Source of the DNA: Sulfurifustis variabilis
Lineage (GTDB): Bacteria; Pseudomonadota; Gammaproteobacteria; Acidiferrobacterales; Sulfurifustaceae
Length of the DNA stretch: 64,000 nt
Direction of reading: 5' to 3'
Assembly: GCF_002355415.1 (NCBI RefSeq)
Contig: NZ_AP014936.1
Span: 1-64,000, forward strand
Below, one piece after another: positions 2,890 to 48,194 of the stretch; position 1 is the stretch's first letter; every line of letters starts with the position of its first letter. The translations under genes and the position numbers were made by a program. The notes beneath the pieces are model-generated. The model was given only the letters and a program-made list of their open reading frames with translations, was not told the origin of the DNA and ran no database searches.

Positions 2890-5322
<2,433 letters not shown>

Positions 5323-43674: not shown

Positions 43675-43911
43675 CTAGCGTGCGGCGAGTCGGCGCTCGA
43701 GCATCGCTATCCGCTCTTCCATTTCCTTCAGCTGCGCGCGCGTGCGCGCGAGCACGGCCTCCTGCACCTCGAGCTCCTCGCGCGTAACGAGATCCATCCG
43801 GTCGAGCACCGAGGCGAGCGCCGCGCGCACGTTGCGGTCGAGCTCCTCCGAACCGCGCGGCAGCGTGCGGGCCACGGCCGACAGGATGTCGTCGATCTTA
43901 CGGGCGTCCAT
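43675..43911 (-). CDS. ubiK: Ubiquinone biosynthesis accessory factor UbiK
   Basis: A 78-residue protein of the YqiC/BMFP family. UbiK binds UbiJ and lipid in the aerobic ubiquinone biosynthesis complex and has a C-terminal trimeric coiled coil; here the coiled coil is clear in EELEVQEAVLARTRAQLKEM and onward. The N-terminal part MDARKIDDILSAVARTLPRG matches the family. GGAGG five bases before the ATG fixes the start; the longer upstream frame is rejected. comM follows on the same strand. Confidence 0.92.
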   Translation of the reverse strand: MDARKIDDILSAVARTLPRGSEELDRNVRAALASVLDRMDLVTREELEVQEAVLARTRAQLKEMEERIAMLERRLAAR

Positions 43912-43989
43912 CGGGTCCTCCGCGCAAGCATAGGGGCTGTCGTCGCCAAAGCACCGGTGATCTGTGCGAGGTACGACGTACCGCGCGCG

Positions 43990-43995
43990 AGTATA
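43990..43995 (-). promoter_or_regulatory. -10 element TATACT for ubiK
   Basis: On the minus strand TATACT lies 78 bases before the ubiK ATG. The expected -35 position reads GCCGCT, a poor match, so this is a partial promoter call. Confidence 0.35.
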
Positions 43996-44018
43996 CCAGC
44001 GCTCGCCAACGGAGCGGC

Positions 44019-44035
44019 CGCACCGCAGCGGTGCA
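44019..44035. promoter_or_regulatory. NtrC-type enhancer site 1
   Basis: CGCACC-GCAGC-GGTGCA matches the NtrC palindrome TGCACC-N5-GGTGCA at 11 of 12 specified bases. Its centre is about 130 bp before the predicted sigma-54 start. Confidence 0.7.
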
Positions 44036-44050
44036 GGCACCCGGAATCCA

Positions 44051-44067
44051 AACGCCATGCTGGTGCA
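44051..44067. promoter_or_regulatory. NtrC-type enhancer site 2 (weaker)
   Basis: AACGCC-ATGCT-GGTGCA keeps one perfect half-site and matches 9 of 12 specified bases. Its centre is 32 bp (about three helical turns) from site 1, the same spacing as the two high-affinity NtrC sites of E. coli glnA, and about 98 bp before the predicted start. Confidence 0.5.
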
Positions 44068-44130
44068 CGCGCACCGGGACGAACGGCCATTGAACCAGTT
44101 AAGCCATTGCAAACCAACGGAAAAAGCACA

Positions 44131-44146
44131 TGGCACGGGAACTGCT
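44131..44146 (+). promoter_or_regulatory. Sigma-54 promoter of porin-glnK-amtB
   Basis: TGGCACGGGAACTGCT matches the sigma-54 consensus TGGCACG-R-N3-TTGCW with one mismatch, with GG (44132-44133) and GC (44144-44145) exactly ten bases apart. The predicted start is near 44157, about 84 bases before the porin ATG. The downstream glnK-amtB genes are classic NtrC/sigma-54 targets. Confidence 0.88.
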
Positions 44147-44240
44147 GAGGGCAGGCGCAGCGGAGCTTGGCGACAGGGCGGTTTCAGCTTTTTCCAACAA
44201 CATGCAACGCGGCGAGCGATCCCGCGACTGGAGACGAACG

Positions 44241-45348
<1,108 letters not shown>

Positions 45349-45359
45349 AGGATAAGACC

Positions 45360-46727
<1,368 letters not shown>

Positions 46728-46748
46728 CCCTCCAGGCAGGCAAGGCGA

Positions 46749-46777
46749 AGCGGGCGCGCAAGCGCCCGCTTTTTTTC
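46749..46777 (+). terminator. Intrinsic terminator after amtB
   Basis: AGCGGGCGC, loop GCAA, GCGCCCGCT, then seven T. The T tract runs into the 3' end of the convergent DUF945 gene, which ends at 46776. Confidence 0.93.
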
Positions 46778-48194
46778 ATGGCAAGTGGGCCGTCTGGGCC
46801 GTCCAGAGGCGATCGTTGACGAGGAACTGCCCCCGGCGGATCGCTGCTTTGATGCGATACCGGTCACCGTCGGGCTGCAGCCAGCGGCCGAGCTCGTGGC
46901 GCGCCAGGTACAGGGGCATGGCGCGATCGACGACGCGCATGAGCGCCTCGCCGCGCAGCGCCGCCATTTCGCCATCGCTGAGCGCGCCTCGCGCCCGATA
47001 TCCGGCGAGGTCCTGTTGAACCAGCGGCGCGACGAGCGGCCGCAGCAGCCGCCCCGGTATATTCAACTCTGCCTCGCCCCGCAGGGCCGTAAGCAGGCGC
47101 ATCGGATTCGTACGCACGTCCGAATGACTGCCGTCGAGCACCATGCTCGCCTTCCCGGTGATTTCGCCGTTGGCCGTCTTCAGCGAGAGCCGCGTGACCT
47201 CGAGTTCCGGCGAACCCTCGGCCAGCGACGTCGCCAGCGCGAGCAGCTTGCCGACGACCATGAGCGAGGACTGCTGCTCCGGCAGGTTTCGGGCGTAGAT
47301 CTCCTTGACCTCGTTGCTGAAACGCGCAAGCGACGCGAGATCGAGCTTGCGCACCTGGAGCGTCACCTGCCCGGGCCCGACCTTCTGACCGCCTGCCTGG
47401 ACCTCGCCGATACGGTAATCCGTAACGAGCTCGAGGTGCGGACCCGAGGGTCGAGTGGTCGCCTTGATCGAGAGCCCCGCGACGTGCGTCTGTTCGCCGA
47501 GGGCGACGCGCGCCAGATCGACGGTCGTCGTGCCGAAGCTCACGCCTTGTGCGCCTTCGGCCATCTGCGAACCGAGGCGCAGGTTCGTGATCTCCAGCGG
47601 GCCGGGCATGGGCGCTTCCCCTGCGACGCGCAGGGAGGGAAGCGTGGCTTCCACCTCGTAACGCTTTAGATCCGCCGACGCGATGAGCGTCCCCGAGCCC
47701 GCCGCCCAATCGACCGTCCGCTGTCCCGGCGCCATCTCCTTTGACGATGCCAGCCGCAGACGGCTCTCGAGCGTCCCGTCCGACTTGACGACGGTATCGG
47801 CGACGACCGGCGGCCGGGGAAACGCGAGGTTCACGCTTTGTCCCGGCACCCGCAGGCCCGTCAGCTCCGAGCGCACGCGCGCGCGAAAGACATCGAGGTC
47901 GATCTCGCCCTCAAGCCAGCGATCCAGGCCGAGGGGGCCATGGACGATGTCGTGCGTCGTCGTCACGGTTGCCGGCGTGCCCTGCAACGCCAGCTCGATC
48001 TCGGCCCGGGAGCGCAGCGCGCCGCGCTCGTAACGCTTTACCGTGACCCGCGCGCCGACGCGCCGGCCCAGGTCGGTCGCGAGCGTCTGCAACGCGCTCT
48101 CCGCTTCCCGCCCGTACCAATAGGCGGCGGCGAACGGCGCGGCGAGCGCGAGAGCGACCAGGATCAGGAACCCGTAGAGTGCTTTCTTCTTCAT
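46776..48194 (-). CDS. DUF945 (YdgA-like) family protein
   Basis: A 472-residue protein of the YdgA/DUF945 family. It has an N-terminal membrane anchor (about 5-26, ALYGFLILVALALAAPFAAA) followed by YWYGREAE and a long periplasmic, beta-rich domain. The family is widespread in gammaproteobacteria; its function is not established. The ATG has AAGGAGG upstream. Its stop lies in the T tract of the amtB terminator. It is downstream of speE by 111 bp but has its own -10 box, so it is probably separate. Confidence 0.88.
   Translation of the reverse strand: MKKKALYGFLILVALALAAPFAAAYWYGREAESALQTLATDLGRRVGARVTVKRYERGALRSRAEIELALQGTPATVTTTHDIVHGPLGLDRWLEGEIDLDVFRARVRSELTGLRVPGQSVNLAFPRPPVVADTVVKSDGTLESRLRLASSKEMAPGQRTVDWAAGSGTLIASADLKRYEVEATLPSLRVAGEAPMPGPLEITNLRLGSQMAEGAQGVSFGTTTVDLARVALGEQTHVAGLSIKATTRPSGPHLELVTDYRIGEVQAGGQKVGPGQVTLQVRKLDLASLARFSNEVKEIYARNLPEQQSSLMVVGKLLALATSLAEGSPELEVTRLSLKTANGEITGKASMVLDGSHSDVRTNPMRLLTALRGEAELNIPGRLLRPLVAPLVQQDLAGYRARGALSDGEMAALRGEALMRVVDRAMPLYLARHELGRWLQPDGDRYRIKAAIRRGQFLVNDRLWTAQTAHLP

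Follow-up and report, generated by a model that had tools for sequence, protein, structure and literature searches.

A porin-glnK-amtB operon under predicted NtrC and sigma-54 control in Sulfurifustis variabilis

Introduction

In the 64,000-nucleotide window analysed here (Sulfurifustis variabilis contig NZ_AP014936.1, positions 1 to 64,000) a gene for a TorF-family outer-membrane porin stands directly before glnK and amtB, which encode a P-II protein and an ammonium transporter. The locus raises the question of whether nitrogen limitation switches on an outer-membrane porin together with AmtB and GlnK and, if so, what the porin contributes. A preliminary description of the same DNA had proposed such control from a sigma-54 promoter and two NtrC-type palindromes in front of the porin gene. 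It is highly likely that this is an NtrC/sigma-54 nitrogen-controlled operon of the type represented by nlmA-glnK-amtB in Herbaspirillum seropedicae, a reading inferred from the conservation of the promoter among relatives and from that tested operon of the same gene order. The promoter elements, the gene order and their conservation were observed directly and are described first.

Promoter and enhancer elements

A 329-bp intergenic regulatory region separates the porin gene from the divergent ubiK gene and contains the following elements.

44131 to 44146, plus strand: sigma-54 promoter, TGGCACGGGAACTGCT, with -24 box TGGCAC and -12 box CTGCT
44019 to 44035, plus strand: NtrC-type site 1, CGCACCGCAGCGGTGCA, centre 44027 (about -130), 11 of 12 consensus positions
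44051 to 44067, plus strand: NtrC-type site 2, AACGCCATGCTGGTGCA, centre 44059 (about -98), 9 of 12 consensus positions
44100 to 44112, minus strand: site resembling that of integration host factor (IHF), TAAGCCATTGCAA, matching YAANNNNTTGATW at 7 of 9 positions

The promoter departs from TGGCAC-N5-TTGCW at one base, a C in place of the first T of the -12 box. Such a mismatch is normal here because the base is not conserved in this promoter family, being C in 32, G in 18, A in 13 and T in 5 of 68 sites. The 15-of-16 sigma-54 promoter of the preliminary description thus held up, and it proved to be the sole site on either strand of the window to score at least 14.5 of 15.5; the score was equalled in 7 of 3000 dinucleotide shuffles of the intergenic region. 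Transcription would start at 44157-44158, about 12 bp past the GC of the -12 box.

NtrC-type site 1 is one of only two that good in the window and its score was equalled in 10 of 3000 such shuffles. Site 2 has a good right half and a degenerate left half, and since the window holds 70 sites of 9 of 12 or better it is near chance by sequence; it is position alone that speaks for it. The two lie 32 bp apart and stand 104 and 72 bp before the -24 box, and a 32-bp pair was found in none of the 3000 shuffles. The palindromes and their distances from the predicted start (centres about 98 and 130 bp upstream) are therefore as first described, site 2 with one good half.

In glnAp2 of E. coli, a -24/-12 promoter, the two upstream NtrC sites are also separated by 32 bp and lie at -108 and -140. 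The glnA enhancer geometry claimed for the present locus was reproduced in its spacing but not in its placement: the sites here are at about -98 and -130, so that those of E. coli are about one helical turn further out. The porin-glnK-amtB region also differs in driving a different operon and in having an IHF-like element between enhancer and promoter.

Conservation of the promoter among relatives

Relatives of the porin were drawn from 78 related genomes and 80 named genome contigs, duplicates were removed, loci were classed by the presence of glnK downstream and a sigma-54 site was sought within 400 bp before the start. Such a site preceded 67 of 68 glnK-linked TorF-family (TIGR02001) porins, compared with 12 of 42 unlinked ones (Fisher p about 4e-16, a rough guide only because the compared sequences share kinship). 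At 54 of the 67 linked loci an NtrC site of at least 10 of 12 was found 65-140 bp before the -24 box, sites of at least 9 of 12 peaked at 101-105 and 70-73 bp before it, matching the two in the window, and pairs 30-33 bp apart occurred at 30 of the 67. Judged from this comparison, the conserved positions look like the phylogenetic footprint of a working NtrC enhancer. At about 68 loci, spread over several groups of Beta- and Gammaproteobacteria, the porin is kept as first gene of the operon, a breadth that was absent from the preliminary description.

Two further observations were made on these loci. In the 67 promoters, the distances between NtrC sites and the -24 box seem to fall into groups separated by roughly a helical turn, at around 71, 89-92, 103, 114, 125 and 132. 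Where TorF-family porins occur in tandem (L059, L071, L076 and L078), only the copy adjacent to glnK has the sigma-54/NtrC promoter.

A conserved IHF-like element

Promoters aligned on the -24 box share a conserved TAAC-N4-TG[AT]TT motif 30-32 bp before the -24 T, which fits the IHF consensus YAANNNNTTGATW read on the opposite strand. A match of at least 7 of 9 was found at one position in 19 loci, compared with at most 6 in shuffles, and a match of at least 8 of 9 lay 20-45 bp upstream in 23 loci, compared with an average of 4.2 and at most 10 in shuffles. In the window TAAGCCATTGCAA is placed 31 bp before the -24 T; with 7 of 9 positions it would not count if taken singly. The element is an addition to the preliminary description, which listed none, and IHF alpha is encoded in the genome (157 bits).

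Its type is not new, since a putative IHF site has been reported together with NtrC sites in the glnA promoter of Xylella (PMC3224663). That Xylella fastidiosa promoter resembles the present one in its sigma-54 promoter, two putative NtrC sites and putative IHF site, but drives glnA rather than porin-glnK-amtB. Upstream of glnA in S. variabilis itself, too, an IHF-like stretch, ATTCAATCACTTG, separates the NtrC site from the promoter (L161, around 3538-3550).

Layout of the operon

The genes and the terminator are arranged as follows; glnK and amtB were identified from NCBIfam and Pfam profiles.

43675 to 43911, minus strand: ubiK (BMFP), a profile match; divergent neighbour and upstream border of the regulatory region
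44241 to 44954, plus strand: TorF-family (TIGR02001 / PF09694) outer-membrane porin, 237 amino acids, with a signal peptide
45010 to 45348, plus strand: glnK, P-II protein (NF007946, 182.8 bits, cut-off 181)
45360 to 46727, plus strand: amtB, ammonium transporter (TIGR00836, 470.1 bits, cut-off 343.3)
46747 to 46776, plus strand: intrinsic terminator closing the operon, an 11-pair GC-rich stem followed by a T run

Gaps of 55 bp between porin and glnK and 11 bp between glnK and amtB, together with the position of the terminator, predict a single transcription unit, and no terminator of that kind lies between the three genes. GlnK has the uridylylation residue Tyr51, read from its sequence. A simple and crude consensus scan of 43900-46850 found no sigma-70-type site. 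A candidate hairpin between porin and glnK was dropped as not clearly better than shuffles (z -1.16).

The porin is single copy in the genome and its adjacency to ubiK is kept in relatives, as seen by comparison of gene neighbourhoods. At 44130 an in-frame ATG runs into the -24 box of its promoter, and automatic annotation could therefore lengthen the porin to 274 amino acids and hide the promoter within the gene.

Known systems and the nitrogen regulators of the genome

The nlmA-glnK-amtB (orf1-glnK-amtB) operon of H. seropedicae depends on NtrC, and nitrogen limitation raised its expression 21-fold; NlmA was detected in membrane extracts and its function given as unknown (PMC3023670). The likeness to the present locus lies in the order of membrane protein gene, glnK and amtB. 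The first gene here is a predicted TIGR02001 outer-membrane beta-barrel, and the comparison was made through four Oxalobacteraceae relatives (L106, L107, L132 and L155): since these carry a homologous porin-glnK-amtB, NlmA is probably a TorF-family porin of the kind seen here. Among open papers nothing useful was found on TorF or Gcw_chp with nitrogen, nor on the porin in those dealing with Pseudomonas NtrC, Hfq and nutrient limitation. As far as open papers go, three points are possibly unreported: how widely the footprint extends, the fixed position of the IHF-like element, and the reading of the first gene product as an outer-membrane barrel of TIGR02001.

The S. variabilis genome encodes rpoN (482 bits) and ntrC (731 bits, over the cut-off), the latter with a histidine-kinase open reading frame upstream that was read as ntrB. 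Upstream of its glnA are an NtrC site without mismatch, TGCACTATATTGGTGCA, and a promoter of weaker match, AGGCAT-N5-CTGCA; NtrC-type sites also precede ntrBC, and a separate P-II gene lies at 2.31 Mb. The proposal of nitrogen control through NtrC and sigma-54 is thus strongly supported by conservation, by the presence of rpoN, ntrBC and glnA in the genome and by the NtrC-dependent Herbaspirillum operon.

There is also a second, intact amtB (432 amino acids) at L162:633-2500 (genome 519.4-521.3 kb), preceded by a glnK with several frame breaks. It keeps an 11-of-12 NtrC site, TGCACCAAACCGGTGCG, about 130 bp before its start, and no sigma-54 site of at least 13.5 was found upstream of it.

Porins away from glnK-amtB

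Ten unlinked porins retain a sigma-54 site of at least 13.5. At L081, which has the order comM-ubiK-porin, the site is near-perfect and no glnK-amtB was found in the 3.5 kb examined downstream; two porins of Acinetobacter (L158), near a comM-like gene, each have a near-perfect site, as does the porin of Azoarcus taiwanensis (L111), where an ammonium transporter gene lies just upstream. These sites away from glnK-amtB suggest, by sequence comparison, that sigma-54 controls the porin gene in its own right. Contrary to this, the ubiK-porin loci L069, L070, L074, L075 and L080, which lack glnK, have no sigma-54 site. Two unlinked porins that have a sigma-54 site, L060 and L103 from separate genomes, adjoin a gene for the omega-aminotransferase AptA.

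The porin and its possible substrate

The assignment of the first gene to the TorF-type outer-membrane porins is borne out by its match to TIGR02001 (194.7 bits, cut-off 47.15, profile search) and by an AlphaFold2 model from an 11-sequence alignment, a 12-stranded barrel with a predicted local distance difference test (pLDDT) score of 81. With its C-terminal Phe the protein is a predicted outer-membrane beta-barrel. The best structural matches of the model are KdgM and NanC (Z 15-16, 162-183 residues aligned, 9-11% identity), a likeness that shows fold class only, because numerous further 12-stranded barrels trail them by no more than about 1-2 Z; no solved structure related by sequence was found. 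KdgM and NanC carry acidic sugars, whereas the lumen predicted here is itself acidic.

A strand-alternation heuristic puts D58, E86, D88, D103 and E124 in the lumen. Four of these carboxylates, D58, E86, D88 and E124, are invariant in 69 of 69 linked sequences and probably face the lumen; D58 and E86 are somewhat looser in unlinked porins. Together with the model, this conservation is compatible with a narrow channel whose acidic lumen would suit the passage of cations. Porins linked to glnK had been predicted to be the more acidic ones, but the prediction failed: their median net charge is -4.2 per 100 residues compared with -10.9 in unlinked ones.

Alternative explanations

That the elements are chance matches in GC-rich DNA, with transcription driven by a sigma-70 promoter, is extremely unlikely. 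Palindromes of the NtrC core taken singly number 149 in the whole genome (this and other genome-wide counts are pattern searches), but the spaced combination never arose in 3000 shuffles and is conserved across families, and the scan mentioned above detected no sigma-70-type site. It is also very improbable that the sigma-54 promoter is real but answers to another enhancer-binding protein and a signal other than nitrogen. About nine further proteins of the genome resemble NtrC over its activator domain, so that the activator has to be assigned by site and context; both favour NtrC, as the upstream sites match its sequence at conserved distances, like those before glnA and ntrBC, the operon contains glnK and amtB, and in Herbaspirillum the operon with this gene order is NtrC-dependent (PMC3023670). 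A substantial possibility, if one short of even, is that the sigma-54/NtrC elements serve glnK-amtB only and that the porin rides along as a passenger whose role is general or unrelated, like that of torF in the trimethylamine N-oxide (TMAO) system of Shewanella. Pfam lists the function of PF09694 as unknown, the torF gene of Shewanella is annotated with TMAO reduction, 30 of the 42 unlinked members have no sigma-54 site and the linked porins are no more acidic than the others. Against a passenger role stand the first place kept in so many loci and groups, the near-perfect sigma-54 sites at L081, L158 and L111, and the invariance of the four probably lumen-side carboxylates.

Control of the whole operon by NtrC and sigma-54 has to be held against several points that tell the other way. 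Site 2 and the putative IHF-like site of the window are both weak when judged singly, and other enhancer-binding proteins do exist in the genome. Linked porins are less acidic than unlinked ones, contrary to a simple idea of cation uptake, and a role of the porin in nitrogen transport is a guess, though a plausible one.

Proposed mechanism and significance

NtrC binding, induction, the start site and the substrate of the porin are what we infer from these observations. In nitrogen shortage phosphorylated NtrC would occupy the strong site (centre 44027) and, by cooperative binding, the weak one (centre 44059), and IHF or intrinsic bending at about 44106 would aid looping of the DNA. NtrC would then activate sigma-54 polymerase at 44131-44146, with a start near 44157, and the transcript would span porin, glnK and amtB up to the terminator at 46747-46776. 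Ammonium or small nitrogen compounds on their way to AmtB would probably cross the outer membrane through the porin.

A wider proposal, which we put forward tentatively and regard as on the unlikely side, is that AmtB has in the TorF/NlmA porins its dedicated partner at the outer membrane. They would form a narrow channel with a conserved acidic lumen through which, at low external nitrogen, ammonium or small cationic nitrogen compounds reach the periplasm. Their expression would be switched on along with that of AmtB and GlnK by an NtrC-IHF-sigma-54 promoter that is conserved in both Beta- and Gammaproteobacteria.

There is nothing unusual about the promoter as such. The arrangement is found widely, and through it PF09694 gains a regulatory context and residues that can be tested. 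Ammonium transport is usually treated as a matter of the inner membrane, but dozens of lineages have a porin under the shared nitrogen-starvation promoter, which suggests that there is a matching step at the outer membrane.
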